A DNA stretch of 39,251 bases, from NCBI GenBank assembly GCA_015064555.1, contig SVRZ01000023.1, positions 1 to 39,251 of the forward strand, in the 5' to 3' direction. Source of the stretch: Oscillospiraceae bacterium (GTDB lineage: Bacteria > Bacillota > Clostridia > Oscillospirales > CAG-272). The position numbers and the translations under genes were made by a program. Below the pieces are notes generated by a model that saw only the letters and a program-made list of their open reading frames with translations, had not been told where the DNA came from and did no database searches. This document shows positions 2,103 through 32,330 of this stretch, piece after piece; the first letter of the stretch is position 1; the number at the start of each line of letters is the position of its first letter.

Positions 2103-2218
2103 AAAAGATCCTTCCTTCAGATTTTTTAGGATTAACCAATATTATTTTAACACAACTTTCGTAATAAATAATAAAGTAAATGAAAAGAAATTGTGAACTA
2201 AAGGAAAAAAGGCAATAA

Positions 2219-2258
2219 AGATGCAGGGAAACCGAATTTGCTTCGGTGCCCTGCATCT
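2219..2258 (-). terminator. Rho-independent terminator of the fucosidase/mini-peptide transcript
   Basis: Arms 2219-2228 and 2249-2258 are complementary, with a further inner ACCGAA/TTCGGT stem. Read on the - strand the hairpin is followed by a run containing TTTTTT. It lies 45 bases after the stop of the 43-residue peptide gene. Confidence 0.8.
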
Positions 2259-2302
2259 TGGATTTTATTCTGCTTGAATATGGATTTTATTGATTTGTCG
2301 TG

Positions 2303-2434
2303 TCACGCTAAATCAAGATCCCATATTCCGTCATTTTCCTCCTTGGGAGTGGTTTCGGTTCCCGGAGATGACGTGATAATATCGGCACAACCCGGATCTA
2401 TGATCTCTATAGTCGGGAGCTTATATTTTTTCAT
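2303..2434 (-). CDS. Short orphan peptide (43 aa) co-transcribed with the fucosidase
   Basis: I do not recognise a function. The gene starts at the ATG at 2434, behind a perfect AAGGAGGT site placed 5 bases upstream. The longer reading of the same frame starts inside the preceding gene and has no comparable site. The peptide begins MKKYKLPTIEIID, has one Cys (about residue 15), a Ser/Thr/Glu-rich middle and an acidic end DGIWDLDLA. It has no signal peptide or membrane segment. It lies 16 bases after the fucosidase stop and before the terminator, so the two share a transcript. Short peptides of this flavour (MKxYxxPxIEI..., acidic tail) are, from memory, frequent unnamed products in gut Clostridia. 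It could be a RiPP-like precursor, a regulatory peptide or a small structural protein. Confidence 0.75.
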   Translation of the reverse strand: MKKYKLPTIEIIDPGCADIITSSPGTETTPKEENDGIWDLDLA

Positions 2435-2450
2435 TTTTACCTCCTTGCTC

Positions 2451-5400
2451 TCAAGCGTTGAGTGAATCGTAGTAGTCGAAAATAGCATCAAAGGCGCCGA
2501 TGTCAAACAGTCTTTCGAAGATTATGTTGCCTATTACCGCATATCCTGCAGCATTTGGGTGGCAGCTGTCAGCCAGAAGAAGCTCGCTGACGGTACCGTC
2601 GATTATATTTGCTTGTACCGAGATTATAGCCTCCTCAGAGTAGCCGGCAAGCTCATATGAGCTTCTTGAATTGAGCTCGTTACCCATATTGATATATCTG
2701 TCTCCCCAGCGAGCGCTAAGAGCCTCGGTGATAGCCTTGCGGCTTTCGTTAGAGCCTGAGGTGGTTGAAATTATCAGGTAATATTCGGGATTTCCGCAAG
2801 CGGAAAGTATTTCCTCCTGCTGCTTTATGAGGTTGGAAAAATCGTTATTGAATCCGCCGTTTTCGCCCATAAATATGATAAGCGTCCTTCCGTCGTAAAT
2901 GACAGATGCATTAGTAAGAACTTTTGCTCCTTGCGAAAAATTGATCCTGTCGGTCTTGCCGTCTGTACGGCTGAAGGTATATCTGAGATATTGATAATCG
3001 CAATTCCATATATACTTTCCCTCGGGAATATCCTCAGTCACCGAGCAGCTTAAAATTCCCGTTACAGTCACGGTTTTTCCGTTTTCATCGGTTCCCGTGA
3101 TGGTAACGCTTTGCATCTGCGGATTAACCGATATATCCTTGCGCAAGATGCCTTCGCGACCGCTCATACCGTTCTTGCTTTGCATAAGCGGGAGGATGAT
3201 TGGAGAGTCAGAGATGCTTATCGAATTTCCAAGGTACAGATAATAGCTATCTGTGTTCGCTCTTGCCGCTATCGTGAAGGTGGTTTCACCTCCGACACCG
3301 CAGTTGGCAATGTTGATTCCGCCGTATACCTTGCTTGCTATGAGATTGCGGAGCACCTCTGAGTAAGTACCGCCCGCTGCGGTGCTTCCGAGCGCGGTAA
3401 GATCAAGACCGTGTCGATCTGCAACGGTGGTGTTATAGGCATTCGAGCCCGCGGTGATAGAATCTCCCCAGGCAGCTATATCAGGAAGCATCGTGCCGGC
3501 TACATCCTCGTCTATGTTATTTGGGATAGGCTTGTATACTACATTTATTGCACTGCTTTTCAAAGCTGTTATCTTGAGATAGAGATCGCGCGTATAGTAT
3601 CCCGAAACCGCAGGCGAGGGAATAGATATCTTTTCGCCCTTTACGGCATATACCGTTTTAGGCTCCGCAAGAGTGCGTCCGTTCTCGTCAACATAGCTTA
3701 CGTCAATCTTCACGCTGTTTTTGAAATCTCTTGCGCTCTGACAGTATTTCCAGAAGCGCTCAACGAGATTGACCAGATCCGCATTATTCTCTCCGAGCGC
3801 CCATGCGTGATATGCCGCTATATGGAAGCTTCCTGATTCTCCGTTTGCCGTATATGTGATCGTATCACACATAGCATAGGCATATACGTCGAGTTCAACG
3901 TACGAACCGTATGCATCCTTGCCTTCGGTATAGGTGTATTCTCTGCCGTTTATATAGAAGCGGTATTCGATACTCGCATCCGCACCGTCTGCAATGTAAA
4001 ATCTGAGAGCCGGTGTAGAGTTAAGAGCAAAGGTCGCTGCCTTGAAACCGGGGGTGTTGACCTTTTCAGAGCCCTCCGGATCATAGAGGGAGGTTTCGTC
4101 GTATCTTTCTCCGATCAGCGAATCTATTTTAGCAACTGTACCGTCGGTGTCAGTATCGAAATATCTGTAAGCAGCTCTGACGTATGAAAGAACGTCGCGG
4201 ATCACCTGCTTTTCAACCTCGTTGGAGGTGGCGAACACCTTCTTCGCATATTTGAGGATGGAGAAGGTGAATCGTCCTGTAGCTACAGTAGTTCCATTGG
4301 ATGCCTTAACGGTAAGGATAATGTCTTTTGCGGCTTCCTTTGCATCCAGCTCCTTTTGCACAACGTAATATCTTTTTCCTTCAAGCTCGGTTATAGAATA
4401 CTCGAGGGAGGAAAGATCGGTATAGCCGATTCCGTCAAATACAAAGCTTACTGTTCCATCTACAGGGATATAAACGTTCATTTTTATGCTGGAATCAAGT
4501 GTTATACTTACCTGAGGAATATAACTGCTGAACTGCGCAGCGCTGAGTCCGAATACAGTATTATCTGCCGTTTCCGAAATCTTAACAAACTGCAGCGCAC
4601 CGTTATTGAATAGAGCGCTCGGTGCGGATGAGCCCGCAGGGAGAGTGATAGTGGGATAACTGCCATCGTACTTGCCGAGCATAAGCTTATCCTCAGCATT
4701 TGATACCTTCATTATTGCAGGCGAATCTATTCTGTCTGCTGTGATATTACCGCCGTTTATAGTTATATCGGCATCAATATAATTGGAAACCGAGAGGTCG
4801 AAGAGAAGTCCGTTTCCGCTCTTGAAGGAGCAGTTGTTAAATACTGCCGATACAGAAATATTCTTAGAGCCGGAGCCGGTATCTACAACGTCGAAGGTGC
4901 CGATCGATATCAGCGGCTTATAAGAAGATACGCATTTATCGAAGGTGACGTTATCATACGTGAACCTGAATTCCTTGGTTCCCGCATATCCGAAGTTTCC
5001 GCTCTTTCCCTTGGAGGATATCTGCATCAGCGGCATATCGTTGGTAAGAATAGTTCCGTTTTTGACGTTTATTACAGTAGTATCAAGATAAACGGTTCCG
5101 CCGGACGTAACCGCCTTGCCTACAAGGTCAAAAAGATAATTGCTTTTTTGTGTAATCGTATGATTACCAAGGTCTATGGTAAGAGTTCCGAGAAGCTGAG
5201 CCAGATTAGCAAAGACAGCGTCCTCGTGTATATAATCCTTATTCATATACAGCATCAGACTCTCGCCGTAGAATATTCCGTTTTTATTAGGATAAAGCAG
5301 ATTTTTGATCTTGTTTTCCATAACGTCGCGGTAGGAATCGTACGAGCCTATGTGAAGATCGTTATAGAATAACGAGAAGGTTTTGGAGGATAGGTTCTCG

Positions 5401-10372: not shown

Positions 10373-13027
10373 TCAGAATAGCTTCTTTTTTGAAGAAATA
10401 AGCTTTCCGTTGTCATAAACGCGGGCTTCCTTTTTGCCGTTGGGGTAGATATAAACTCCGTTTCCGTGGAGCTGACTGTTGAGGAATCCGCCCTCGTAGC
10501 TGCTGCCATCCTTCCAGATATATTTACCCTGACCGGTACGTGCGCCGTTCTTCCAATCTCCGTAATAGGACTCGCCCTTCCATTTTCCTTCGCCCCAGTG
10601 ATAGCTGCCCTTTCCGTCGCGATTGTCATCCTTCCAGGTACCATCGTAAACGTCGCCGTTTTTCCAGGTCATCCGTCCGCTGCCGTGCCTGTTATTATTG
10701 AGGTAATCGCCCTCGTAGACAGAGCCGTCAGCCCAGAAGAATTTGCCCCTGCCGGTACGCATATTGCCTTTCCAATCGCCTTCGTATGAATTGCCGTTAG
10801 CCCAGCGGCACTTACCGTAACCGTTTCGGTCGCCGTCTCTCCATTCACCGTCATAGACCTCTCCGCTTTGGAAGGTGTATTTACCTCTGCCGTGTCTTTT
10901 GTCGTTCAGGAACTGTCCTTCGTAAACACCGTTATTATATGTCTTTTTCTGTATGGGGGCAGAGGAGTTGCTGCTCGTGGATTTTGATGAGGATATAAGC
11001 TTATCGTTATCGTACGTGCGCGTTTCGCGTCTGCCGTCAGGATAGGTGTATATACCTGTTCCGTGGAGCTTACCGTTCAGGAAGCCGCCCTCATAGGAGC
11101 CGCCATCCTTCCAGATGTATTTACCTTGTCCGGTACGTGCACCTTCCAGCCAATCGCCGTAATAGGATTCGCCCTTCCATTTTCCTTCGCCCCAGACGTA
11201 GCGGCCCTTTCCGTGGCGCTTGTCATCCTTCCACGCACCGTCGTAAACGTCGCCGCTTTTCCAGGTCATACGGCCGTTGCCGTGTCTTAAATTATTGAGG
11301 TAATATCCCTCGAAAAAGTCACCTTCTGCCCAGTAGTATTTTCCGTATCCGGTACGGTTACCGTCTTTCCAGTCACCATCGTAGGAGTTTCCGTTTGCCC
11401 AGCGGTATATGCCCTTGCCGTTGCGCTTGTTACTTACAAAATCACCTTCGAAAGTATCTCCGCTTGTCCAGGAGAAGAATCCCTTTCCGTTCTCGCAGTC
11501 ATCCTTCCAATCTCCGTCATAATAGTTTCCGCTGGCGAAGGTGCACTTACCCTTTCCATGGCGCTTGCCATCCTTCAGCTGTCCAACGTATACTGCGCCG
11601 TCGCTATAAGTTTTGCGCTCTACGGGAGCGTTATATGTCGATGTGCTTGTGTTTGCCCTGCGAGTTGCCTCAGCCCGGCGAGCCTCTTCTGCCTTGCGTG
11701 TCTTCTCGGCCTCCTCCATTTCGCGGAGCTTGCGCTCTGCCTCCTCACGGCGGCGAGTCTCCTCTGCGAGGCGGGCATCCTCGGCTTTTCTTGTTTCCTC
11801 AGCCTTTCTCGCCCTTTCAGCCTCCTCCATCTCACGGAGTCTGCGCTCGGCTTCTTCGGCTCTGCGGAGTCTGTCGGCATCCTCGATCTCACGGAGTCTG
11901 CGCTCTGCCTCTTCGCGGCGGCGAGTCTCCTCCGCAAGGCGCTCTGCCTCCTCGTCAACGACGGGAGAATTGAGCACGTCCATGCACTCGCCGAGTCTGT
12001 CTATCAGCTGATCGAACGTTTCTGCATATGTAAGCCCCGAGAAGAAGTCCTTAAGCATTCTGTCTGCAATGGGAGTAGGTCTGTTATCAAGCCTGTATTC
12101 GACCTTGAGCATCTTATATCTGTCGGGCAGCTGTGCGTAGGTCCTTGCCTCGGGATATTTCTGAAGATCTCTCTGTCTTACGTAGGGAATCTCTCTCTTG
12201 AAGGCGTCACAGGACTGATTTCTTGAATTGACAGAAGAGAGAAATACGAATATAGAGGAATTATCTATAGCCGTCTGCAAAGCTCTTTCATAGCTGGCAA
12301 CGGCATCGCGTCCGTGCTGGAGGTTTCTGAATGCCGCAAAGCAGGTAAGACCGCTGTCCTCGATGAAATTCAGTATTTCAACAACCGATTTCATATCTCT
12401 GCTGGAATAAGCAAGGAAAACGTCTCTCGGAGTATTGAGGTCATATAAGCCACCCTGAACCTTGTCGGCTTCCTTTTCAAATTCGGTGAGATGCTTCTGC
12501 TTGTCGGAAGGCGAGAGCACATAGCCGGCACGGTCGAGAAGTGCTGCCACAGGGGTAACGTACGATTCCTTGAGTGATCGGGTAAGGAAATCGAGCACGA
12601 GGTCCAAATAGAGTGCGTTTTCCTTAACGTCGATGCTGCCGATATAATCCGCAACCTCAATATCATCTGCGGAATTTGCTATCTCAAAGAACTCTGCAAG
12701 AAAATCGTGCGGATCTATTCCCTTGATCTCGCGGCATATATTGACTATAGCTCTGCTATCTATGTATTTTGCGGTTATCTTATCCCAGAGCATAGAACGA
12801 AGATTATAGTATTTTTCGGTTTTTTCATTGAGCATCGCCTCGGATACTACCGAGCCAAGGCTGGCTTTAACGGTGGACTCGAGCCTTTCGTACTCGCGCT
12901 CCGTGCTCTCTTCTGTAAATTTACCTGCACAGTGCGCACAGCACCAAAGCACCATGCCGTTTTCTTCTGTTTTGGAAAGCTTACCCTCCGCACCGCACTG
13001 AGGGCATCTCATAACTTTAAGCTCCAT
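10373..13027 (-). CDS. Zinc-ribbon/TIR-domain protein with coiled coil and two MORN-repeat arrays
   Basis: An 884-residue cytosolic protein with, in order: a zinc ribbon (C8-x2-C11 ... C30-x2-C33), a helical region (about 40-190), a TIR domain (about 200-340; DVFLAYSSRDMKSV, FRNLQHGRDA, FVFLSSVNSRNQSCDAFKREI), an E/R-rich coiled coil (about 357-458), and 15 MORN repeats in two arrays (8 at about 478-680, 7 at about 705-875). E279 sits where TIR NADases carry their catalytic Glu. Bacterial TIR domains often hydrolyse NAD in anti-phage systems, and MORN repeats bind membranes or proteins; the role here is unknown. The start at 13027 has AAAGGG. An in-frame ATG at 13123 lies inside the -35 box and is rejected. 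It has its own promoter, with terminator-like hairpins on both sides, so it is a single-gene unit. Confidence 0.85.
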   Translation of the reverse strand: MELKVMRCPQCGAEGKLSKTEENGMVLWCCAHCAGKFTEESTEREYERLESTVKASLGSVVSEAMLNEKTEKYYNLRSMLWDKITAKYIDSRAIVNICREIKGIDPHDFLAEFFEIANSADDIEVADYIGSIDVKENALYLDLVLDFLTRSLKESYVTPVAALLDRAGYVLSPSDKQKHLTEFEKEADKVQGGLYDLNTPRDVFLAYSSRDMKSVVEILNFIEDSGLTCFAAFRNLQHGRDAVASYERALQTAIDNSSIFVFLSSVNSRNQSCDAFKREIPYVRQRDLQKYPEARTYAQLPDRYKMLKVEYRLDNRPTPIADRMLKDFFSGLTYAETFDQLIDRLGECMDVLNSPVVDEEAERLAEETRRREEAERRLREIEDADRLRRAEEAERRLREMEEAERARKAEETRKAEDARLAEETRRREEAERKLREMEEAEKTRKAEEARRAEATRRANTSTSTYNAPVERKTYSDGAVYVGQLKDGKRHGKGKCTFASGNYYDGDWKDDCENGKGFFSWTSGDTFEGDFVSNKRNGKGIYRWANGNSYDGDWKDGNRTGYGKYYWAEGDFFEGYYLNNLRHGNGRMTWKSGDVYDGAWKDDKRHGKGRYVWGEGKWKGESYYGDWLEGARTGQGKYIWKDGGSYEGGFLNGKLHGTGIYTYPDGRRETRTYDNDKLISSSKSTSSNSSAPIQKKTYNNGVYEGQFLNDKRHGRGKYTFQSGEVYDGEWRDGDRNGYGKCRWANGNSYEGDWKGNMRTGRGKFFWADGSVYEGDYLNNNRHGSGRMTWKNGDVYDGTWKDDNRDGKGSYHWGEGKWKGESYYGDWKNGARTGQGKYIWKDGSSYEGGFLNSQLHGNGVYIYPNGKKEARVYDNGKLISSKKKLF

Positions 13028-13094
13028 TATTTTCCCTTTCCGAAATTCCGCTCCGAGCGGAGATTTACCAGATCGATTTTTTTCATACACAGAT

Positions 13095-13123
13095 ATTTTA
13101 TCATACCGAGAGAAATATGTCAA
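13095..13123 (-). promoter_or_regulatory. Promoter of the TIR-MORN gene with nested dyad
   Basis: On the - strand: TTGACA (13118-13123), 17-base spacer, TAAAAT (13095-13100). The -35 box is centred in two nested inverted repeats: outer CATACCG/CGGTATG (13102-13108, 13130-13136) and inner AAATAT/ATATTT (13113-13118, 13123-13128). This looks like an operator. Confidence 0.7.
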
Positions 13124-14470: not shown

Positions 14471-15655
14471 ATGGCAAAATTTGTATATGCAGACAACGCT
14501 GCAACGACCCCTGTCACAAGAGAGGTCATAGAGGCGATGCAGCCCATATTTGAAACTCAGTGGGGCAATCCCTCGAGCCTCCATGCGAAGGGCAGAGAGG
14601 CAAAGGCGATACTTGACGATGCGAGATCCAGGATCGCAGCGGTATTTTCCTGCAAGCCCACCGAGATATACTTCACGTCCTGTGGCTCCGAGTCGGACAA
14701 CTGGGCGATAAGAGGCGCGGTGAAGCGCCTTGCCGCAAAGGGCAGAAATCATATTGTAACCACCAAGATAGAGCATCCCGCGGTTCTCAACACCTGCCGT
14801 GCGCTTGAGAAGGAGGGCTATCCCGTAACCTACGTTGGCGTGGATGAAAACGGAATAGTTCTTATGGACGAGCTTCGCAATGCTATAACCGATAAGACGG
14901 CTATAGTGGCAGTTATGTATGCAAATAATGAGATAGGCACGATAGAGCCTATTGAAGAGATTTGTGAGCTTGCACACGCAAAGGGTGCGCTCATGTTTAC
15001 CGATGCCGTGCAGGCTGTCGGAAATATCGATATCGACCTCTCGAAGCTTCCTGTTGATATGCTTGCTCTTTCGGGTCACAAGATCCACGCGCCAAAGGGC
15101 ATTGGAATGCTCTATATCAGGAAGGGCGTATTCATTGACAATCTTATCTCGGGCGGCGGTCAGGAGCAGCGCCGCAGGGCAGGCACCGAGAATCTGCCTT
15201 ATATCGTCGGACTTGCAAAAGCGCTCGAGGTCGCCAAGGAAAAGCTCGGCGAGCTTGACCGTGTCGTAAAAATGAGAGATAGACTTATTGAGGGACTTGA
15301 AAAGATACCCTACTCACGCCTTAACGGTGACAGAGTGAAGCGTCTGCCGGGCAACGTAAACATCGGCTTCGAATTTATCGAGGGTGAGAGTATGCTTCTT
15401 TGGCTTGATATTGCGGGCATCTGCGCATCGACAGGCTCTGCCTGCTCATCCGCATCTCTCGAGCCCTCGCACGTGCTTCTCTCGATAGGCGTCCCGCATG
15501 AGAAGGCGCACGGCTCCGTCCGTCTGACACTCTCTCACGAGAACACCGAGGAGGACGTTGATTATATTCTTGAAACACTTCCTCCCATTATAGAAAAGCT
15601 CCGTAATATGAGTCCTCTTTGGGAAGAGGTAGTAAAAAATCAGAACAAGGCTTAA
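14471..15655 (+). CDS. nifS: Cysteine desulfurase (NifS/IscS family)
   Basis: A PLP enzyme that converts cysteine to alanine and carries the sulfur as a persulfide for Fe-S cluster assembly and tRNA thiolation. The 394-residue product has the PLP-binding lysine in LSGHKIHAPKG (K204) and the catalytic Cys in TGSACSS (C325); the short SACSSxxxxPSHVL loop fits the NifS/IscS (group I) type. The start has GAAAGGAAAG. It is followed after 26 bases by the nifU-type scaffold, forming a two-gene operon. MnmA, a normal sulfur recipient of such enzymes, is 4 kb away in its own transcript. Confidence 0.96.
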   Translation: MAKFVYADNAATTPVTREVIEAMQPIFETQWGNPSSLHAKGREAKAILDDARSRIAAVFSCKPTEIYFTSCGSESDNWAIRGAVKRLAAKGRNHIVTTKIEHPAVLNTCRALEKEGYPVTYVGVDENGIVLMDELRNAITDKTAIVAVMYANNEIGTIEPIEEICELAHAKGALMFTDAVQAVGNIDIDLSKLPVDMLALSGHKIHAPKGIGMLYIRKGVFIDNLISGGGQEQRRRAGTENLPYIVGLAKALEVAKEKLGELDRVVKMRDRLIEGLEKIPYSRLNGDRVKRLPGNVNIGFEFIEGESMLLWLDIAGICASTGSACSSASLEPSHVLLSIGVPHEKAHGSVRLTLSHENTEEDVDYILETLPPIIEKLRNMSPLWEEVVKNQNKA

Positions 15656-15681
15656 GATGAAAGGTTAGGATAGATAAAATT

Positions 15682-16095
15682 ATGCAGTACAGCGAAAAGG
15701 TAATGGATCACTTTATGAATCCGAGAAATGTCGGTGAGATCGAGAACGCAGACGGTGTCGGAATGGTAGGAAATGCGAAATGCGGCGATATAATGAAGAT
15801 GTATCTCAAGATAGAGGATGACGTTATCACCGATTGCAAATTCAAGACCTTCGGATGCGGTGCGGCTATTGCGACCTCGTCCATGGCTACCGAGCTTATA
15901 AAGGGAAAGACCGTCAAGGAGGCACTCGAGCTTACGAACAGTGCGGTTGTCGAGGCTCTTGAAGGACTTCCCGCAGTAAAGGTGCATTGCTCGGTGCTTG
16001 CCGAGGAGGCGGTAAAGAGTGCTCTTGCGGACTATTATCATAAGATCGGCAGACCTGTCGATTTTGAGATAGAGAAGGATCACGACGAAGAATAA
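15682..16095 (+). CDS. nifU: Fe-S cluster scaffold protein (NifU N-terminal/IscU type)
   Basis: Scaffold on which [2Fe-2S]/[4Fe-4S] clusters are built from NifS sulfur and then handed to apoproteins. The 137-residue product is the single-domain form: YSEKVMDHFMNPRNVGE at the N-terminus, then the three cluster cysteines in NAKCGD, FGCGAA and VHCSVLAEE. It lacks the central ferredoxin and C-terminal NFU domains of nitrogen-fixation NifU. Directly downstream of nifS, and its transcript ends at the hairpin at 16183-16219. The minimal NifS-NifU pair is the usual Fe-S machine of anaerobic Clostridia without SUF. Confidence 0.95.
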   Translation: MQYSEKVMDHFMNPRNVGEIENADGVGMVGNAKCGDIMKMYLKIEDDVITDCKFKTFGCGAAIATSSMATELIKGKTVKEALELTNSAVVEALEGLPAVKVHCSVLAEEAVKSALADYYHKIGRPVDFEIEKDHDEE

Positions 16096-16182
16096 ACCGG
16101 GGCTGCCGCATTCAGGCATAACCGAAAAAACAAAAAAAGAGTCTGAGTCATTAAGAATTCAACGAAAAAATATTATAAAAGT

Positions 16183-16219
16183 ACGGCAAAGGCACTGTGT
16201 TTTACAGTACTTTTGCCGT
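16183..16219. terminator. Bidirectional terminator, repeat copy 2, overlapping a stop codon
   Basis: A 16-bp stem with one G-U and one C-A pair (16183-16198 with 16204-16219) and loop GTTTT ends the nifS-nifU transcript (+, T-rich tail). The right arm also encodes the last codons and stop (16202-16204) of the convergent PaaK-like gene. Bases 16167-16208 match 91-132 at 41 of 42 positions. Confidence 0.8.
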
Positions 16220-17485
16220 TCTTTTAATCAGTTTCATTTTATTTCCGTCAGCGGTATCCAGGACACCGCGGCAAACGAGCTCAAGGTCAAGAGCAACGCC
16301 GAGCATTTTTCGCGAAGCCTCCCTGAATCTCTCTTTTGCGGCGGTATGAGGGATGCTGAATCCATCCTTTGCTTCTGCTGTTACGGTGAGAGTCATATTA
16401 TCGGCAGTCGGAAGTGAGATACGGTATACTCCGCTAAGGAAATCGAATGTTGATACAAGACGGTCTATATCAGATGGGAAGAATTTACATCCCTTGTGGA
16501 TTATCATATCATCGCTTCTTCCGAGAATACGGACGCGCTTTCCGGTTCTTCCGCACGGGCACTCGTCATCATACATAATTGCCAGATCGTGAGTATTGTA
16601 TCTGATCAGGGGCATACCTGTTTTTGTCAGTGTCGTTATAACCAATTCACCGACACTTCCGGCTTGGAGCTGCTCTCCTTTATCGCCTATGATCTCGGCA
16701 AATATCATATCCTCGGGAATGTGCATTCCGGTGTTATAGCTGCAGGATGCAAAAACATTGGTCATTTCGGCATTTCCGTATACGTTGTATGCCTTCACCC
16801 CGCCCAGTGACTCAATGTTGTTCAATTTTTCATCCGTGCAGAGCTCTCCGGCGATAAAGCAGGTGCGGAGCGCCGAATCGGTTGGAGAAATTCCCTCAGA
16901 TCGCATTTTTTTGAAAATGTGCATAGCATACGACGGTGTAGCCGCAAGGCAGGTGGTTCCGAGGTCGCGCATCAGGCTTATCTGTCTTTCGGTGTTTCCT
17001 ACCGAGGTAGGTATAACTGCGGCGCCTATTCTTTCTGCGGCACTCTGTATGCCGATCCCACCTATGAACATGCTGTAGCTGAAGGTGTTTTGTATTACGC
17101 TCTGCTCGTTACACCCCTGCATAATAAGAGCTCGGCAAAGCCCTTCGTTATAGGCGGCTATATCCGCGGCAGTGCAGGGCACGAGTATCATTTTTCCGCT
17201 TGTACCCGAGGTGCCGTGTATGCGGATTATCTCGCTTGCGGGTGCCGCTTGCATTCCGAGTGGATATGCGGCGGCGAGATCTTTTTTATCAATTATCGGA
17301 AGCAGAGGTATCTCTTCCGTTCTCAGCGGCTTTCCAATGGCTATTCCCGAGCTTTCCAGCAGCTTGCGATAGCTCGGATTGCGGTGCATCATGTAATCGT
17401 AAAGCTTGGAAAAGGCATTTTGCTGAAGCTCTGCCAGCTGCTTTCTCGGCAGGCACTCGATCTCTCTGTTGTAATAAGCTTCCAT
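16202..17485 (-). CDS. PaaK-like adenylate-forming enzyme (phenylacetate-CoA ligase family)
   Basis: A member of the ANL superfamily that activates a carboxylic acid with ATP, usually passing it to CoA. The 427-residue product carries the P-loop RIHGTSGTSGK (about 90-100), YNVYGNAEMTN in place of the usual YG-TE motif, the arginine-bearing PLIRYNTHDLA and the hinge GRSDDMIIHKGCKF followed by a PaaK-type C-terminal lid. The family includes phenylacetate-CoA ligase and coenzyme F390 synthetase. The substrate is unknown; with no indolepyruvate oxidoreductase beside it, an aryl-acetate is only one option. It starts 3 bases after the GNAT stop (TGA at 17489) with GGGTGAG, so the two are translated together. 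Its last five codons lie in a terminator hairpin. Confidence 0.85.
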   Translation of the reverse strand: MEAYYNREIECLPRKQLAELQQNAFSKLYDYMMHRNPSYRKLLESSGIAIGKPLRTEEIPLLPIIDKKDLAAAYPLGMQAAPASEIIRIHGTSGTSGKMILVPCTAADIAAYNEGLCRALIMQGCNEQSVIQNTFSYSMFIGGIGIQSAAERIGAAVIPTSVGNTERQISLMRDLGTTCLAATPSYAMHIFKKMRSEGISPTDSALRTCFIAGELCTDEKLNNIESLGGVKAYNVYGNAEMTNVFASCSYNTGMHIPEDMIFAEIIGDKGEQLQAGSVGELVITTLTKTGMPLIRYNTHDLAIMYDDECPCGRTGKRVRILGRSDDMIIHKGCKFFPSDIDRLVSTFDFLSGVYRISLPTADNMTLTVTAEAKDGFSIPHTAAKERFREASRKMLGVALDLELVCRGVLDTADGNKMKLIKRTAKVL

Positions 17486-17488
17486 ATC

Positions 17489-18013
17489 TCACCCGACTCG
17501 TTTTTTGAATTCCTCTTCTGTTACAGAGAAGAGTATCATATCGAAAATTTCGCCGCTGGAATTTTTAACGGCTTCCCTGAGATATCCCTCGCGCACGAAG
17601 CCTATGCTTTCCATCAGACGTACCGACGCCAGATTATCGGAAAATACTCTTGCAGTTAGCCTGGCTATGCCTTCATTGAACAGATTCGGGATAAGCCCCC
17701 TCAATGCTTCGCTCATAAAGCCTTGCTTTGCCACAGACATATCCAGCCATCCGGCAAGCTCCATGGAATCAACGTGATATCTTATGTAGTCCTCCTTGAT
17801 ATGTATCAGCCCGAGAAAGCGTCCGGTATGCTTTTCAAGAAGGATGACCAGATCGTATCTTTCAAGCTCGGCGAGTACGTCCTCGGTTGACGAATCTGTA
17901 TAAAGATTATATCTTTGGACAAAATCCGAATTGCGCACCTTAGAGATGTCAGGTGCATCGGTCGGTATGGGGGAGCGCAAAATAAGGCGCTCGGTTTCAT
18001 AGTATCTTTTCAT
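17489..18013 (-). CDS. GNAT-family N-acetyltransferase (RimJ/RimL-like)
   Basis: Transfers acetyl from acetyl-CoA to an amine; this subfamily contains ribosomal-protein and small-molecule acetylases. The 174-residue product begins MKRYYETERLILRSP, typical of the RimJ/RimL-type fold, and has the later LMESIGFVREGYLREA signature. An upstream ATG (18046) is possible, but GAGG is spaced 7 bases from the ATG at 18013. It is the first gene after the terminator of the radical-SAM gene and is coupled to the PaaK-like gene by a 3-base gap. No promoter is evident in the 44 bases between the hairpin and the start, so read-through from the peptide/radical-SAM transcript is possible. Confidence 0.85.
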   Translation of the reverse strand: MKRYYETERLILRSPIPTDAPDISKVRNSDFVQRYNLYTDSSTEDVLAELERYDLVILLEKHTGRFLGLIHIKEDYIRYHVDSMELAGWLDMSVAKQGFMSEALRGLIPNLFNEGIARLTARVFSDNLASVRLMESIGFVREGYLREAVKNSSGEIFDMILFSVTEEEFKKRVG

Positions 18014-18057
18014 ACAAGACCTCGTAAGGGATATAAGCTGACTCATTTCTGATAATT

Positions 18058-18104
18058 AAAAGCAGGCAGAGGCTTCACGTATAAGAGCGCCTTTACCTGC
18101 TTTT
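18058..18104 (-). terminator. Terminator after the radical-SAM gene
   Basis: Arms 18089-18104 and 18058-18073 pair as AAAAGCAGG...CCTGCTTTT with one wobble and one mismatch. On the - strand the tail is TTTTAATT. It separates the peptide/radical-SAM unit from the GNAT/PaaK pair and may be leaky. Confidence 0.7.
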
Positions 18105-18146
18105 TAGCTTCTTCAAAATAAAGCAGCCGTATTTTATATACTCGTA

Positions 18147-19256
18147 TTACAGCTTCTCATTTATCATAAGTGCCGACTTGAGAATAAGTGCGACTTCGCC
18201 GTTATCCATATCTTCATACTGTCCGAGACGGAATTTTTCGGCGGCAAAATATGCTAAAGCACGGAATTGTATCTTGAATAACGGGCAAAGATTCATATCG
18301 CGCAGATGTATGCTTCCCGTTGCGGAAAAATTCTCTCCGTAGCAGGTCGGACAGATATTTCGCATAACACATTTTCTGCAAACCTCCGGCATGACGTCCT
18401 CTTCAAGGACGTACTCCTTGAAATCTATCTTGAGAGATTCCATTGCCTGCTCGCGTCCTATGCTGAGGGGCAAAAAGTGCTGGCACGGATAGGCAGTACC
18501 GTCAAAGTCATATGCCTTCATAGCATAGCCCGCACCGCAGTATCTGAGATTTTTATCGTCTACAAGACTCATGCTCCTCAGCCTCGTTACGTCCAGCATA
18601 GCGCAGGGCTTAACGGATGGATTCTCCAGATAATACTGTATGAGCTTCATAAGCTCGCGCTCAAACACCGATTTGTTTTCCTCGTCCGACCAGTCTATTC
18701 CGTACGCCAGGTTACAGGAAACGTCAAAGCCCTTTTCGTGGCAGAATATTACTCCCTCGGCAAGATGGGGGAGTGTTTTTGTGGAAACAGTCATCTTTAC
18801 ACCCTGGTCAGGGTAGGTCTTTGCGAAAAATTCCAGGTCTATCTTATCGAATGAGTTGCATCGGTTGATATCCTGCATATATTTATTTCCGTCAAGACTG
18901 AGACCGAGCTGGAGCGTATCGGTATGCTCGGAGAGCCATTTCTTCTGCTCGTCGGTCAGAGTCGTTCCGTTTGTAGTGATAAAGAATATGTAATCCTTAG
19001 GATAACTTCGGGATTCGGCATATTCGATCAGTGCCTTTACCGTTTCGAATTCAAGAAGTGCCTCTCCTCCGAAAAGATCGATCTCCACCTCATCCTTTCC
19101 GTCATCCTCCGTAAGCTCGCGGTCAATTATCTCTTTTGCAAGCTCAATGGACATAACGCTGCTGTCCTTGTGCTTTTCATAGCAATAAATGCACCTGAGA
19201 TTACACTGGTGCGTGAGCACCAGTGTAATACTCTTTGAGTGGATCTCAGGCTGCAT
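18147..19256 (-). CDS. Radical SAM/SPASM peptide maturase
   Basis: Probably installs a radical-made crosslink (thioether in known relatives) on the Cys-rich peptide encoded just before it. The 369-residue product has the radical-SAM cluster motif CNLRCIYC (C18, C22, C25), the SAM-binding FGGEALL, and a C-terminal SPASM region: C-x12-G-x4-C (YCGAGY...DGTAYPC), then C-x2-C-x5-C-x2-C (CRKCVMRNICPTC) and a final Cys in NLCPLF, ligands for two auxiliary clusters. The start at 19256 overlaps the peptide stop as TGATG; the in-frame ATG seven codons earlier lies inside the peptide gene. It is shorter than typical SCIFF maturases as I recall them (about 450). It resembles CXXX-repeat maturases. A 12-bp hairpin covers codons 10-19. 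Confidence 0.9.
   Translation of the reverse strand: MQPEIHSKSITLVLTHQCNLRCIYCYEKHKDSSVMSIELAKEIIDRELTEDDGKDEVEIDLFGGEALLEFETVKALIEYAESRSYPKDYIFFITTNGTTLTDEQKKWLSEHTDTLQLGLSLDGNKYMQDINRCNSFDKIDLEFFAKTYPDQGVKMTVSTKTLPHLAEGVIFCHEKGFDVSCNLAYGIDWSDEENKSVFERELMKLIQYYLENPSVKPCAMLDVTRLRSMSLVDDKNLRYCGAGYAMKAYDFDGTAYPCQHFLPLSIGREQAMESLKIDFKEYVLEEDVMPEVCRKCVMRNICPTCYGENFSATGSIHLRDMNLCPLFKIQFRALAYFAAEKFRLGQYEDMDNGEVALILKSALMINEKL
19200..19229 (-). promoter_or_regulatory. Perfect 12-bp hairpin within the start of the radical-SAM gene
   Basis: Arms 19218-19229 and 19200-19211 are fully complementary around a 6-base loop, starting 27 bases inside the maturase coding region (28 past the peptide stop). No U-tract follows. 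It may lower maturase translation or protect the 3' end of the peptide message, giving more precursor than enzyme. Confidence 0.5.
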
Positions 19257-19423
19257 CAGCCCTTGCTCGCCTTGCACTTTCTTGCGCAGTTTTCAGCGCA
19301 GTGGTTGGAGCAATCCATGCATCCGCCCATAGCAACAACGTGTGCGGCAGCGTTACCGGCATCATGCTCGTTTGCTACGAACTGCATTATGCTTTTTGCG
19401 ATTTCTTCGTTGATCTTGAACAT
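19256..19423 (-). CDS. Cys-rich RiPP precursor peptide (SCIFF/CXXX-repeat-like, 55 aa)
   Basis: A likely precursor of a ribosomally made, radical-SAM-modified peptide. The 55-residue product has a 34-residue leader (MFKINEEIAKSIMQF...) ending in Gly-Gly (33-34), then a core with cysteines at 35, 38, 42, 46 and 50, i.e. C-x2-C-x3-C-x3-C-x3-C. This is the spacing I know from SCIFF ranthipeptides without the sixth Cys, and it also reads as CXXX repeats. Possible thioether acceptors in the core are D37, N40, E44 and N45. The start has AAAGGAGA and the gene has a perfect TTGACA/17/TATAAT promoter. Its TGA overlaps the ATG of the SPASM enzyme. No dedicated peptidase or exporter is adjacent. It was missed by ordinary length cut-offs. 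Confidence 0.85.
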   Translation of the reverse strand: MFKINEEIAKSIMQFVANEHDAGNAAAHVVAMGGCMDCSNHCAENCARKCKASKG

Positions 19424-19494
19424 AATCGTTCTCCTTTGCTTTTTTGCCCATCCGCGAAAGAGTCATACGGCTCCGGACGGTATGGGATAATTAA

Positions 19495-19523
19495 ATTATA
19501 TTCCTTTTTGTTACAAATGTCAA
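19495..19523 (-). promoter_or_regulatory. Consensus promoter of the Cys-rich peptide gene
   Basis: On the - strand TTGACA (19518-19523), 17-base spacer, TATAAT (19495-19500): a full match to the housekeeping consensus. The leader is about 65 bases. It stands back to back with the mnmA promoter. Confidence 0.85.
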
Positions 19524-19570
19524 GTAAAGTGATAAAATTTATGATTTTCGGGCTTTTGAAAAACCTTCTC

Positions 19571-19599
19571 TTGACAATAGAAGGTTGTTAGGGTATAAT
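19571..19599 (+). promoter_or_regulatory. Promoter of mnmA with dyad over the -35 box
   Basis: TTGACA (19571-19576), 17-base spacer, TATAAT (19594-19599), full consensus. An inverted repeat AACCTTCT/AGAAGGTT (19562-19569, 19579-19586) brackets the -35 box and suggests repressor control. Confidence 0.85.
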
Positions 19600-19631
19600 T
19601 TAAGAAAGAATTTTATTTCACGGAGTTGGTA

Positions 19632-20675
19632 ATGAAGATACTATTAGGATTGAGCGGCGGAGTTGATTCCACCTATGCCGCCCTCAGGCTTAAGGCAGAG
19701 GGACATACGGTGGAGGCGGCGGTGCTCGTTATGCACGAATACACCTCGGTTGCCGAGGCGGAGGAATCTGCGCGCTCGCTTGATATCCCCTTGCACGTGG
19801 TGGATTGCCGCGCCCGATTTGACGAGGTCGTCAAGAGGAGCTTTGCCGAGGAATACCTTCGGGGAAGAACTCCGAATCCCTGCGTCGTCTGCAATAGCGA
19901 AATAAAATTCATTTATCTTCTCGAATATGCCGAGAGTGAGGGCTTCGATGCTATTGCCACAGGGCATTATGCATCGGTTGTCTGCCTCACCGACTCGCTC
20001 GGCAGCTACTATGCAGTAAAGCGAGGCCGCGATGTAAAAAAAGACCAGACCTATATGCTCTGGCGGCTTCCGCAGAGGGTGCTCTCGCGCCTTGTTATGC
20101 CGCTTTCGGATATGACAAAAGATGAGATAAGGGAAGGCAGCCGCGAGTCAGGACTCGCCGCTGCAGATCGCCCCGATAGTCAGGAGATATGTTTTTTGCC
20201 GAATGGCGGATATGCCGAATTTATCGAGGATAATTTCGGAAAGAGCGAAAAGGGCAGCTTCATTGACAGCGACGGAAATATTCTGGGTGAGCACAGCGGT
20301 ATTATAAGATATACGGTAGGTCAGCGCAAGGGCTTGGGTATAAGCCTCGGAGCGCGCGCATTTGTCACCGATATCGATCCCGTCGCCAATACGGTGACCC
20401 TCTCGACCGAGGATGCTTATTTTTCTCGTGTACTCATCAGCGGCATAGTCTATTCGGGTATGCGAAGGCCCGGTGAGGGCGAGGAGCTTCGCCTTTCGGT
20501 CAAGCTTCGGTATTCTGCGCCTCCCGTTATGTCGACTGTAAGATTTTTCTCCGACCGAGCCGAGATACTGACCGATACCCCCGTCAGGGCGGTAACACCC
20601 GGTCAATCTGCCGTTCTGTATGACGGTGATATACTCGTCGCAGGCGGATTTATAGATAAGGCTTATCGAGGATAA
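19632..20675 (+). CDS. mnmA: tRNA-specific 2-thiouridylase MnmA
   Basis: Thiolates U34 of tRNA for Lys, Glu and Gln in an ATP-dependent reaction, taking persulfide sulfur from a cysteine desulfurase. The 347-residue product has the PP-loop LLGLSGGVDST at the N-terminus, the catalytic cysteines in TPNPCVVCN (C84) and SQEICFL (C187), the tRNA-contacting KKDQTYMLWRLP, and the TVGQRKGLGI segment before the beta-barrel end. The ATG at 19632 follows GGAG by 6 bases; an in-frame TTG at 19626 is less likely. It has its own strong promoter, 42 bases before the next gene on the same strand. Confidence 0.96.
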   Translation: MKILLGLSGGVDSTYAALRLKAEGHTVEAAVLVMHEYTSVAEAEESARSLDIPLHVVDCRARFDEVVKRSFAEEYLRGRTPNPCVVCNSEIKFIYLLEYAESEGFDAIATGHYASVVCLTDSLGSYYAVKRGRDVKKDQTYMLWRLPQRVLSRLVMPLSDMTKDEIREGSRESGLAAADRPDSQEICFLPNGGYAEFIEDNFGKSEKGSFIDSDGNILGEHSGIIRYTVGQRKGLGISLGARAFVTDIDPVANTVTLSTEDAYFSRVLISGIVYSGMRRPGEGEELRLSVKLRYSAPPVMSTVRFFSDRAEILTDTPVRAVTPGQSAVLYDGDILVAGGFIDKAYRG

Positions 20676-20717: not shown

Positions 20718-22952
20718 ATGAAAAACAAGAATTCTTTGCTGCGCTCGCAGCTTCAACTGTTAAAGCCATTCATCTCGAGCTGCTCTCTGTCCACGGCACG
20801 CCGAGGACAGGATAAGATCGGAGATCTGATGGTCAGCCTCCATAAAAATTACGTGGATACCGAGTATGTATCTGTGGGTGAGATAAGCTGCGCTATGCTC
20901 ACGCCTAAGGACGAGCTGTCGACAGGAATTATACTCTATCTTCACGGCGGCGGATACACATCGGGAAATCTTTCCTATGCAAAGGGCTTCGGCGCAACCC
21001 TTGCCGCCAAATGCGGCATCCGCGTCTTCTGCGTTGAATACAGGCTCGCTCCCGAGTATATTTATCCCGCCGCGCTGGACGATTGCCTTGAGGCATACGG
21101 ATATCTTCTCTCCAACGGTTACGATCCGTCGCAGATAATCATCTGCGGAGAAAGTGCGGGCGGCGGTCTTGCCTACGCGCTTTGCGAAAAGCTGCACGAT
21201 AAGGGCAGAACTATGCCTGCGGGCATTATTGCGATATCTCCATGGACCGATCTTACCCTTAGCGGAGAATCCTATAAGACAAATGAGAAAAACGATCCTT
21301 CGATGACGAAGGAGCGACTCGCATATTTTGCCAATTGCTATATGTACGGTGCGAAAAGAGAGGGCAAAAAGCTCCATCCTATAGTAAATGAGGACGAGGC
21401 GGAGGATAAGAGAATAAAGAGCGATCCGCGCGTTTCTCCTCTTTTTGCAGAACTTGAAAAGATGCCGCCCTCGCTTATCTTTGCCGGCGGTGACGAGATA
21501 ATGCTCGACGATTCGGTGAGGATGCATAATGCGCTTCTTGAGTCGGGATGCGAGAGCCACCTTATCGTCAGGGAGGATATGTGGCATGCCTACGTGCTTT
21601 ACGGCATTAAGGAGAACGAGGATGACTTCTATAAGATGTCCAAGTTTATAAAGCACTGTGTCCCCGCGCAGAAAAAGCTCCGTTGGATGATGCTTGATAA
21701 TGCCGCAAAAATATTCCCTGCGGCAAGGAGGCGCAATTGGAGCAATGTTTTCCGACTTTCGGCAACGCTCACTGAGCCTATTGACAGGGCACTGATGCAG
21801 ACCGCTCTGGACGTGACTGTCCGCAGATTCCCCTCGATAGCGGTAAGAGTAAAGACGGGAATGTTCTGGTATTTCTTCGAGGAGATACCCTATACCCAAC
21901 CGATCATAGATGAAAAGCCTTATCCGCTCTCCCGAATGCCGTTCGATGATATAAGAAAATGCGCCTTCCGCGTGATAATTTATAAGAACCGAGTGGCGGT
22001 GGAATTCTTCCACGCCCTGACGGACGGTAACGGCGGTCTTATATTTTTGAAAACGCTCGTTGCCGAGTATATATATCAGAAATACAGTGTAAAGGTCCCC
22101 GTAGGTGACGGAATTTTCGATAGACTTGAGGAGCCTATGGAGGAGGAGATGGAGGACAGCTTCCTGAAATATGCCGGAGATCATCCGGCATCCCGCGCGG
22201 CAACCGATGCTTATAAGCTTACGGGAACGCGTGTTGAGGACGGCTTCCGCACGAATACCACCTTCATAATGGACTCTGCCGATGTTATTCGAGCGGCTAA
22301 GGAGAAGGGAATTACCGTAACGGCATACCTTGCCTCGATGCTTATCGTGGCGGCATCGCGGGTTCAGGAGAAGAACGTGGCGAGCAAAAGGCGGCATAAG
22401 CCGATAAAGGTGCTCATCCCCGTAAATCTGCGAAAAATGTTTCCATCAAGGACCTTGCGTAATTTCGTTCTTTATTCAACTCCCGGCATAGATCCCAGGC
22501 TCGGTCAATACTGCTTTGACGAGATCTGCGAGATAGTTCATCATCAGATGAAGCTGGAAATAACAGAAAAGAACCTCGCTGCTATGATGGCAACTAACGT
22601 AAACAGTGAGAAAAATAAGATCTTAAGATGCGTACCTCTGTTCATCAAAAATGTGGTAATGAAGCTTATATTCGATGCGGTAGGCGAGAGAAAGAGCTGC
22701 TTCAGCTTTTCAAATCTCGGCGCCGTCAACGTGCCCGAGGAATTTTCGAGATACGTCGACCGCATTGATTTCGTAATAGGCACTCAGGCATCCGCTCCCT
22801 ATAATACCGCGATCCTCAGCTATAAGGGCAAGATGTATCTGAACGTTATCAGGAATATAGAGGAGCCCAAGCTTGAGTATGAGATTCACGAGGCGTTACG
22901 CGAGCTATCTATTCCCCACGTGGTCGAGAGCAATACAAGAGAGAGGAGATAA
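20718..22952 (+). CDS. Fusion of alpha/beta-hydrolase (HSL-type esterase) and condensation/acyltransferase-like domain
   Basis: A 744-residue two-domain enzyme. Residues about 60-310 are a hormone-sensitive-lipase-type esterase: oxyanion motif HGGGYTSGN (from H76), nucleophile in GESAGGG (S146), acid near GGDEIMLDD, and His in DMWHAY. Residues about 325-740 resemble alcohol acetyltransferase/condensation-type proteins, with HALTDGNGG (H432, D436, G437) and the C-terminal FSNLGAVNVP strand. Together they suggest making or swapping an ester on a hydrophobic alcohol or lipid. No signal peptide. The ribosome site is weak (ACGGTA). It heads a tight set with the zinc-ribbon membrane protein (2-base gap) and the tandem flavoprotein. 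Substrate unknown. Confidence 0.85.
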   Translation: MKNKNSLLRSQLQLLKPFISSCSLSTARRGQDKIGDLMVSLHKNYVDTEYVSVGEISCAMLTPKDELSTGIILYLHGGGYTSGNLSYAKGFGATLAAKCGIRVFCVEYRLAPEYIYPAALDDCLEAYGYLLSNGYDPSQIIICGESAGGGLAYALCEKLHDKGRTMPAGIIAISPWTDLTLSGESYKTNEKNDPSMTKERLAYFANCYMYGAKREGKKLHPIVNEDEAEDKRIKSDPRVSPLFAELEKMPPSLIFAGGDEIMLDDSVRMHNALLESGCESHLIVREDMWHAYVLYGIKENEDDFYKMSKFIKHCVPAQKKLRWMMLDNAAKIFPAARRRNWSNVFRLSATLTEPIDRALMQTALDVTVRRFPSIAVRVKTGMFWYFFEEIPYTQPIIDEKPYPLSRMPFDDIRKCAFRVIIYKNRVAVEFFHALTDGNGGLIFLKTLVAEYIYQKYSVKVPVGDGIFDRLEEPMEEEMEDSFLKYAGDHPASRAATDAYKLTGTRVEDGFRTNTTFIMDSADVIRAAKEKGITVTAYLASMLIVAASRVQEKNVASKRRHKPIKVLIPVNLRKMFPSRTLRNFVLYSTPGIDPRLGQYCFDEICEIVHHQMKLEITEKNLAAMMATNVNSEKNKILRCVPLFIKNVVMKLIFDAVGERKSCFSFSNLGAVNVPEEFSRYVDRIDFVIGTQASAPYNTAILSYKGKMYLNVIRNIEEPKLEYEIHEALRELSIPHVVESNTRERR

Positions 22953-31340: not shown

Positions 31341-32270
31341 CTACTGCCTTTCAAGCAAAGGCTTTGCCAGTATCTCTTCCTTCCTGTCGATAAGATCGCT
31401 TGTCGCAATAGCGGCTTCAAGAGCATCTATGCCGATGCGGTCAACCGTTGCACCGAGTCGCTCCTTAACGTAACCGTTCTCCTTGTACCAGAGGAGGACC
31501 TTTTCGATAACGGTGGGAATTTCATCGACCGGATAGGTATTATTTAAGCGAGTGCCCATGCGCTGGGTCTTTCCCCAGGTTCCGCCAACGAAAATACGGC
31601 AAGCCGATTCGGCTTCCTTAGGAGCTGCACCGAAGGGGCATTTGCCGATGCATACACCGCACTTCGTGCATTTTCCGCCGTCAATAACAGCCCTTCCGTT
31701 CTCAACCGAAACGGCTCTTGAGGGACAGCTTTCGGCAACTGAGCATCTCTTGCAGGCGCGGCATAGCTCGCCGTCAAAGGAGAATAGCTTGCAGCCCTCC
31801 ACACCCACGTCGTTCAGACTCGGCTTCATACAACTGTTCGGACAGCCGCCGACGCCGATCTTGAATTTATGCGGGAGCTTAACGTCGCGCATTCCTATGT
31901 AAAACCTATCGTAAATGACCTTGGCTATCGCCTGAGTATCGATATTGCCGTAAACGCAGGTCGTGCCCTTGCAGGCGGTGATAGGGCGAACCTTCGCGCC
32001 TGTTCCGCCGAAGTACAAGCCGTGCTCTTTCATAAACTGCTCCGCTTCGGGGATCCTCTCGAAGGGAATTCCGCTGATCTCGGCAGCGAGTCTTGCGGTG
32101 AATATCACCCTGCCGTCACCGAATCTCTCGGCGCAATCCGCAATAGTATGAAGCTCGTCGGGAGTGAAAAGACCTGCAACGGTAACTACTCTGCCGGAAA
32201 AACAGTCGGTACCTCTGTTTCGTAAGAATCCGCGCGCCTTCACACTCATTATCTGTTCTTTTGTAAGCAT
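31341..32270 (-). CDS. Siroheme sulfite/nitrite reductase-like protein with 2x[4Fe-4S] ferredoxin domain (AsrC-like)
   Basis: Probably reduces sulfite to sulfide in the cytosol. From the ATG at 32270 (GAGGT 9 bases upstream) the product is 309 residues. It has a ferredoxin-like N-terminal half-domain, then the siroheme-[4Fe-4S] coupling cysteines in CKGTTCVYG and GGCPNSC, two ferredoxin clusters in CRACKRCSVAESCP and CTKCGVCIGKCP, and a C-terminal reductase end. This is the architecture of the anaerobic AsrC subunit. AsrA and AsrB are absent here, so the electron donor must come from elsewhere. An earlier in-frame ATG (32330) lies in the promoter and is rejected. It is transcribed divergently from an ABC transporter through overlapping promoters. 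Confidence 0.88.
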   Translation of the reverse strand: MLTKEQIMSVKARGFLRNRGTDCFSGRVVTVAGLFTPDELHTIADCAERFGDGRVIFTARLAAEISGIPFERIPEAEQFMKEHGLYFGGTGAKVRPITACKGTTCVYGNIDTQAIAKVIYDRFYIGMRDVKLPHKFKIGVGGCPNSCMKPSLNDVGVEGCKLFSFDGELCRACKRCSVAESCPSRAVSVENGRAVIDGGKCTKCGVCIGKCPFGAAPKEAESACRIFVGGTWGKTQRMGTRLNNTYPVDEIPTVIEKVLLWYKENGYVKERLGATVDRIGIDALEAAIATSDLIDRKEEILAKPLLERQ

Positions 32271-32289
32271 AATGTTTACCTCGTTGAAA

Positions 32290-32318
32290 TTGACATAAGA
32301 TGTTTTCTGTGATATAAT
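32290..32318 (+). promoter_or_regulatory. Promoter of the ABC transporter operon
   Basis: TTGACA (32290-32295), 17-base spacer, TATAAT (32313-32318): full consensus on the + strand. Its -10 lies in the palindrome 32309-32330. Confidence 0.85.
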
Positions 32319-32330
32319 ACATTGTATCAC
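32309..32330. promoter_or_regulatory. 22-bp palindromic operator candidate covering both -10 boxes
   Basis: An inverted repeat with 18 of 22 positions symmetrical, ends GTGATA and TATCAC. It contains the -10 boxes of both divergent promoters, so a bound dimer would shut both. It does not match the CRP half-site spacing. A metal or heme-responsive repressor is possible but not shown. Confidence 0.6.

Follow-up and report, generated by a model that had tools for sequence, protein, structure and literature searches.

What is made from a gene for a short cysteine-rich peptide whose stop codon overlaps the start of a radical S-adenosylmethionine (SAM) enzyme gene? The question is raised by a locus on contig SVRZ01000023.1 of an uncultured Oscillospiraceae bacterium (assembly GCA_015064555.1), of which a stretch of 39,251 nucleotides, in the following termed the window, was analysed computationally. 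The unit found there is a cassette of three genes coding for the peptide, the radical SAM enzyme and a GNAT acetyltransferase. In our interpretation, to which we lend about even credence, this cassette would encode a horizontally spread ribosomally synthesized and post-translationally modified peptide (RiPP), whose maturase, devoid of a RiPP recognition element (RRE), would form thioether bonds in a ranthipeptide-like manner and whose product would probably be acetylated. The elements of the cassette are:

19495..19523, minus strand: sigma-70-type promoter, TTGACA-17-TATAAT, 12 of 12 consensus positions
19431..19437, minus strand: Shine-Dalgarno sequence AAAGGAG of the peptide gene, read from the sequence (CTCCTTT on the plus strand)
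19256..19423, minus strand: putative precursor peptide gene, 55 residues, leader MFKINEEI...AMG, core GCMDCSNHCAENCARKCK
18147..19256, minus strand: putative radical SAM peptide maturase gene, 369 residues from ATG, with CX3CX2C and seven SPASM-type cysteines (PF04055, CteB-like fold)
18058..18104, minus strand: hairpin between the enzyme and GNAT genes, an inverted repeat, terminator-like with a short T run
17489..18046, minus strand: cassette-specific GNAT acetyltransferase gene, likely start at 18013 (PF13302)

The peptide and enzyme genes had been recognized in a first-pass annotation. On re-reading the sequence, the open reading frame (ORF) of 55 residues, its Shine-Dalgarno sequence, the coupling by TGATG, in which the peptide stop and enzyme start overlap, the enzyme and the coordinates are all as described there, and so is the perfect promoter, with its 12/12 match at -35 and -10 and its spacer of 17 nucleotides. 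The full translation of the peptide (19256-19423, minus strand) reads MFKINEEIAKSIMQFVANEHDAGNAAAHVVAMGGCMDCSNHCAENCARKCKASKG. Its conservation is illustrated by four relatives, which were found at locus L003 in a metagenome-assembled genome (MAG) of the Clostridia (G699) and L004 in a Bacillales MAG (G700), both from one enzyme scan of genome contigs, and at L009 in the window's genus (G033) and L031 in the same family (G653), both from whole-genome searches, with kinship labels assigned by tools. At each of these loci a peptide of 53-55 residues is located directly upstream of an enzyme that is 58-64% identical to that of the window, and the peptide precedes the enzyme in five out of five cases. 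The core consensus of the relatives, GCMDC[ST]N[SH]CAENC[AS]xxCK, is nearly the same as the core of the window, and we refer to the five as CMDC loci. In pairwise comparison, the cores are identical in 14-17 of 18 residues with 3-7 codons silently different, and several values of synonymous divergence (dS) are saturated. Since the core residues are kept in four orthologues while the codons differ silently, this comparison identifies the peptide as a conserved gene with a core under strong constraint and not as a chance ORF. An absence of the peptide beside homologous enzymes, which the annotation had named as a reason to abandon its proposal, was thus not encountered; the pair of precursor and maturase is conserved. 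All five cores contain five cysteines, spaced C-x2-C-x3-C-x3-C-x3-C, and the residues D37, N40 and E44, each located two positions after a cysteine (the first, second and third), are invariant throughout, while the second and fifth positions after the fourth cysteine are occupied by R/Y/I/V and K. The Gly-Gly described in front of the core did not withstand the comparison, as it is found in only two of the five orthologues, with a single glycine in the other three, and leader cleavage at such a motif was consequently dropped. By eye, a promoter-like sequence is present at the same place as in the window in L003, L009 and L031; no such sequence was noticed in L004, in which 56 bp separate the start of the peptide from an upstream ligase gene.

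What the enzyme would do to this peptide is suggested by its domains and its fold. It belongs to the radical SAM superfamily, with a PF04055 match of 48.1 bits (cut-off 29.5) and the cluster motif CX3CX2C at C18-C22-C25. All 15 aligned enzymes share the cluster cysteines and seven SPASM-type cysteines without exception. The seven cysteines of SPASM domains follow the pattern CX9-15GX4C..CX2CX5CX3C..C; the auxiliary segment of the window enzyme reads CX2CX5CX2C and the Pfam SPASM model PF13186 gives no report. The earlier SPASM label thus relies on the conserved cysteines and the fold, without a match to that model. In PADLOC, the enzyme matches the viperin model pVip with 52.7 bits, but only in residues 10-135, which constitute the shared radical SAM core, and since peptide maturases score higher, a role in defence was rejected. 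The structure predicted by AlphaFold2 from 13 alignment rows (mean predicted local distance difference test score, pLDDT, of 90.6) is closest to CteB (5why, 5wgg), followed by an anaerobic sulfatase maturase and ChlB, whose structure was solved with its precursor leader. CteB, a thioether-forming maturase of SCIFF peptides, is also the top solved match by sequence profile. Fused RRE domains are described for ranthipeptide maturases in a passage of PMC7470986. In the window enzyme, 17 residues precede the first cluster cysteine, 45 follow the last cysteine and the model shows no extra domain, and as judged from these lengths and the model, with no RRE hidden Markov model (HMM) run, there is no room for a fused RRE. 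That the enzyme modifies the peptide we consider highly probable.

Is the pair a member of a described peptide system? With respect to SCIFF (TIGR03973/TIGR03974; CteA/CteB), the annotation had remarked on a spacing equal to SCIFF minus the last cysteine, and the core spacing is indeed identical to that of the first five cysteines in a true SCIFF peptide encoded in G699, with CteB as the closest solved relative of the enzyme in fold and sequence. SCIFF peptides differ from that of the cassette in a sixth cysteine, in a threonine acceptor at position +2 or +5 from the fourth cysteine (for CteA, a passage of PMC8326336 reports thioethers Cys32-Thr34/Thr37) and in an unrelated leader; the cassette differs further in its attached GNAT and in the missing room for an RRE in its enzyme. 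Neither product reaches the SCIFF models: the peptide shows no match to TIGR03973 at E up to 1 (cut-off 50 bits) and the enzyme scores 101.8 bits against TIGR03974 (cut-off 425), whereas the SCIFF pair of G699, used as control, obtains 57 and 557.7 bits, respectively. Moreover, three of the five carrier genomes (G033, G653, G699) encode a separate SCIFF maturase above cut-off elsewhere, with none detected in G000 (82% complete) and G700. On the basis of HMM scores, cysteine count and this co-occurrence, canonical SCIFF was rejected, in agreement with the divergence that the annotation had proposed.

The core also reads as a series of CXXX units (TIGR04114/04117/04118 with TIGR04115/04119), and the affinity noted for this family proved to be weak in the peptide (TIGR04118, 18.8 bits, E 0.0011, cut-off 35). 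The enzyme aligns along the whole of TIGR04115 with 134.7 bits (cut-off 350). A 728-residue enzyme of an Anaerococcus plasmid, in contrast, passes this model (487 bits) and contains TIGR04119 as second domain (278.8 bits), which is absent from the listed matches of the window enzyme, where no sequence is left to accommodate it. The top-scoring NCBIfam model is that of the PapB family (NF047865, 154.2 of 340 bits), to which the freyrasin maturase belongs and whose Cys-to-Asp/Glu thioether chemistry serves as model for the bonds proposed here. The best enzyme models are thus those of PapB, CXXX and SCIFF-type peptide maturases, all below cut-off; the ranthipeptide-maturase affinity claimed initially holds for the ranking of models and for the nearest fold but not at the level of thresholds, and canonical CXXX or PapB membership was rejected. 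All 15 aligned enzymes match TIGR04115 and NF047865; the bit scores seen, for four of them, are below cut-off, and the others are expected to be so as well since the best E-values among the 15 are 2.2e-58 and 6.7e-52. In the enzyme tree, the SCIFF enzyme and all three CXXX enzymes are placed away from the cassette group, with long branches flagged in that part. As judged by these comparisons, the cassette is related to known peptide systems and passes as a member of none. Among the literature matches listed, nothing was found on the cassette unit and none for TIGR04115, TIGR04118, 'CXXX repeat' or Clo7bot.

An enzyme whose matches to peptide-maturase models are all below cut-off, and whose second-best fold family is that of sulfatase maturases (4k36-4k39), could in principle introduce another change, be it an alpha-thioether, an epimerisation or the oxidation of a cysteine as in sulfatase maturation, in which case the product would be no ranthipeptide, a class defined by thioethers between sulfur and a non-alpha carbon. 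Since CteB leads both the profile and the fold comparison and no NCBIfam model scores above that of PapB, we regard such chemistry as unlikely, and thioether bonds in the product, proposed from these comparisons, as rather probable. In the thioether-forming scheme, the enzyme would recognize an MFxIxxEL-like leader without RRE, abstract hydrogen from core side chains and join core cysteines to nearby residues. The likeliest acceptors would be D37, N40 and E44, since they follow a cysteine at position +2 and are invariant in five cores, and since Asp or Glu serve as acceptors in PapB (a passage of PMC9413430) and Asn in NxxcA. A protease not linked to the cassette would then remove the leader and, with less certainty, the GNAT might acetylate an amine of the product, either at the new N-terminus or in its Lys-rich tail. 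As stated in the annotation, no adjacent peptidase or exporter is found in the ORF list of the window, and none was recognized in the ORF lists of the other flanks, with Pfam run on selected neighbours. In L009, a type I signal-peptidase-like gene is located about 4 kb from the peptide, amid unrelated genes.

The role proposed for the leader can be compared with more distant loci. The CMDC core was found in five loci only, and the other enzyme matches are cousins, a far relative (G546, 36% identity) and two long CXXX-type open frames. Seven of eight cousin loci, in G039 (L010), G820 (L040), G740 (L045), G847 (L042), G922 (L043), a second locus of G699 (L048) and G1218 (L079), encode, either upstream or downstream of the enzyme, a small peptide whose start is of the MF[x][ILV] type (in L043, MLNMFVL) and whose core is of the CXXX type. 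Such a common start in front of varying cores would be expected of a recognition leader. The cousin precursor in the congener G039 (L010 4317-4487, plus strand), located downstream of its enzyme, contains six cysteines (CFGCSGACASGCDSRCDGSC) and thus one CXXX unit more than the core of the window. Adjoining a far enzyme relative, a 296-residue protein with a Cys-rich tail (GSSCGSGHGCMGSHWCSGY; L032 8166-9056, minus strand) is possibly a precursor with a large leader.

The annotation had described a unit of peptide and enzyme. The pair stands, but the unit is larger, as the description had missed a dedicated GNAT, which is located directly downstream of the enzyme in five out of five CMDC loci. 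The copies in the relatives are:

L003, 1509-2051: cassette GNAT
L004, 6116-6628: cassette GNAT
L009, 150-674: cassette GNAT
L031, 2488-3006: cassette GNAT

The window protein is a GNAT acetyltransferase by domain (PF13302, 62.4 bits, cut-off 25.4) and fold; it is RimJ/RimL-like, and the copies of the five loci are orthologous. In a search of 12 genomes, it retrieved the cassette copies of the four other carriers with E-values of 1.2e-28 to 1.2e-45, while the next-best GNAT match anywhere was at 5.4e-6; two of the seven cassette-free genomes contain one weak match each (best 5.9e-5) and five contain none. By tblastn, no match was obtained at any of 12 cousin and outgroup loci, among which L048 is uninformative since its contig ends 190 bp past the enzyme. 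Because the cassette copies far outscore other GNATs and are absent at cousin loci, these searches assign the GNAT to the unit within the CMDC clade and not to the wider enzyme family. Its substrate is not readable from the fold since RimL, SpeG, MccE and a lasso-peptide acetyltransferase match the model (pLDDT 89.6) about equally; the latter (9iy3, name from the PDB title) tailors a RiPP of another class and is 18% identical to the cassette GNAT. The likeness to MccE would be compatible with an antimicrobial RiPP and self-immunity, where the GNAT would inactivate a bacteriocin-like peptide within the producing cell, in the way MccE acts on microcin C7; by analogy, a near-fixed core would be more in keeping with a conserved signalling or physiological peptide than with a bacteriocin that diversifies, and we consider self-immunity quite unlikely. 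That the GNAT acts on the peptide, as its conserved position may suggest, we propose tentatively, with a confidence slightly short of even.

Several observations weigh against a thioether-forming cassette with an acetylated product. The enzyme has no match to the Pfam SPASM HMM, the threonine acceptor of SCIFF is absent from the cores, none of the five contains a PapB-like CX3D/E motif, the number of CMDC loci is limited to five and the eighth cousin, G1303 (L080), encodes only a peptide with two cysteines, though with a similar start. Cousin loci without such a GNAT indicate that this enzyme type does not need it. Finally, stable hairpins separate the enzyme and GNAT genes in three of the five loci, with z-scores of -3.60 in the window (fold of 18040-18160), -2.51 in L003 and -3.40 in L031, which may reduce or separate the expression of the GNAT there, at odds with strict co-expression; the hairpin of the window was not among the matches of a terminator scan. 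The latter two features, together with a ligase that is found in only two of five loci, would be expected if the GNAT and ligase were passengers and the working unit comprised only peptide and enzyme. This we judge improbable, since the GNAT is kept in all five loci, with 32-44% identity between the window and its relatives, despite differing outer neighbours, and since its gene overlaps that of the enzyme in L004 and L009.

In the window and in L003, the gene after the GNAT codes for this ligase, of the PaaK family:

16202..17485, minus strand: PaaK-family AMP-forming ligase gene, accessory, two of five loci, 46% identical to the L003 copy

As the enzymes of both loci are sisters in the tree (support 96/86), the ligase is probably a later gain. 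No match to it was found in L031, and in L009 the 149 bases that are available past the GNAT do not include a ligase start. A different acyl-CoA ligase is encoded upstream of the cassette in L004, where an 832-residue protein (284-2782, plus strand) appears STAND-type ATPase-like by eye, with only weak CasR/Csa3 matches in PADLOC.

How is the cassette distributed, and how did it reach this position? It is rare and patchy. The enzyme was found at E 1e-30 in 3 of 98 relatives and at E 1e-50 in 1 of 394 genomes of the order, 3 of 295 of the family, 4 of 150 relatives of G699 and 2 of 144 relatives of G700, and a four-row profile at the same threshold retrieved it in 5 of 391 genomes of the class; these counts include the query or centre genome, and the sets overlap, each being a sample of a larger group. 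The five CMDC enzymes form one clade (98/99), whose branching conflicts with taxonomy: the window groups with L003 and the Bacillales-named L004, and the congener G033 with G653, which belongs to a different genus. The cassette of the window occupies a gap of about 3.5 kb, in opposite orientation, between two genes that are not part of it:

15682..16095, plus strand: iscU, left flank of the insertion
19632..20675, plus strand: mnmA, right flank of the insertion

Within the genus, 42 of 60 genomes (including the window's own) gave an iscU match; the loci returned number 30, of which 29 belong to other genomes. In 27 of these 29, mnmA adjoins iscU on the same strand with a spacer of 4 to 235 bp, and the remaining two show no mnmA match within the fetched stretch. 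The tree conflict and the insertion, and these two alone, suggest a horizontal spread of the cassette. Scanned for repeats, 15600-20000 yielded none at the flanks that could be read as a mobile-element border, and the guanine-cytosine content (GC) of the cassette, overall and at third codon positions (GC3), does not stand out. Distant enzyme cousins are present in plasmid, phage and viral-contig collections, and those from a plasmid and a phage (34.8% and 35.7% identity) were included in one alignment, one family scan and the tree. No match was obtained with the peptide in a tblastn search of the plasmid collection (E up to 1), nor an exact one with the core pattern in viral contigs; for the phage collection, the search covered the enzyme alone. 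A human-faecal record named 'Bacteriophage sp.' (L038 615-3780, plus strand) contains two radical SAM enzymes of the broader type close together. The position between iscU and mnmA, in conjunction with the five cysteines, might be taken to indicate that the peptide stays unmodified and has a metal- or Fe-S-related function linked to these genes, but the insertion is local and the other four cassettes show no such flanks in their ORF lists. The functional link was thus rejected and this explanation appears scarcely credible.

The role of the product can be approached by analogy. SCIFF-derived peptides of solventogenic clostridia are linked to quorum sensing and sporulation in a passage of PMC8102284, which cites Chen et al. 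2020, and a signalling-type role of the cassette peptide would be conceivable, although we consider it somewhat less likely than not. A distinct, horizontally spread class of signalling RiPPs, with an RRE-independent Cys(+2) thioether ladder to Asp/Asn/Glu on CMDCxNxCAENC, an acyl cap introduced by the GNAT and a non-acetyl group supplied by PaaK in one sub-lineage, would be a far-reaching extension that we consider hardly probable. If thioether formation by the cassette proves true, the cysteine spacing of SCIFF would be used by a second group of maturases, without fused RRE and paired with an acetyltransferase. The cassette would probably escape surveys that are based on TIGR03973, which is the ranthipeptide rule in Table 1 of PMC13289728, or that require an RRE. 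It bears on the open question of the role of conserved clostridial thioether peptides and, with its near-fixed core of 18 residues and its three small genes, lends itself to direct tests in E. coli.

Other genes of the window deserve mention. Pfam MORN repeats occur in 12 stretches of a 916-residue protein (10373-13123, minus strand), which also has a weak TIR_2 match below cut-off and no match in PADLOC. A nitrite/sulfite-reductase-type protein with 4Fe-4S domains (31341-32330, minus strand) is located upstream of an ATP-binding cassette (ABC) set, with substrate-binding, permease and ATPase-like genes on the plus strand in the ORF list. Finally, a 744-residue protein (20718-22952, plus strand) contains a hydrolase domain of the hormone-sensitive-lipase type, with about 400 residues outside the listed Pfam and NCBIfam models.
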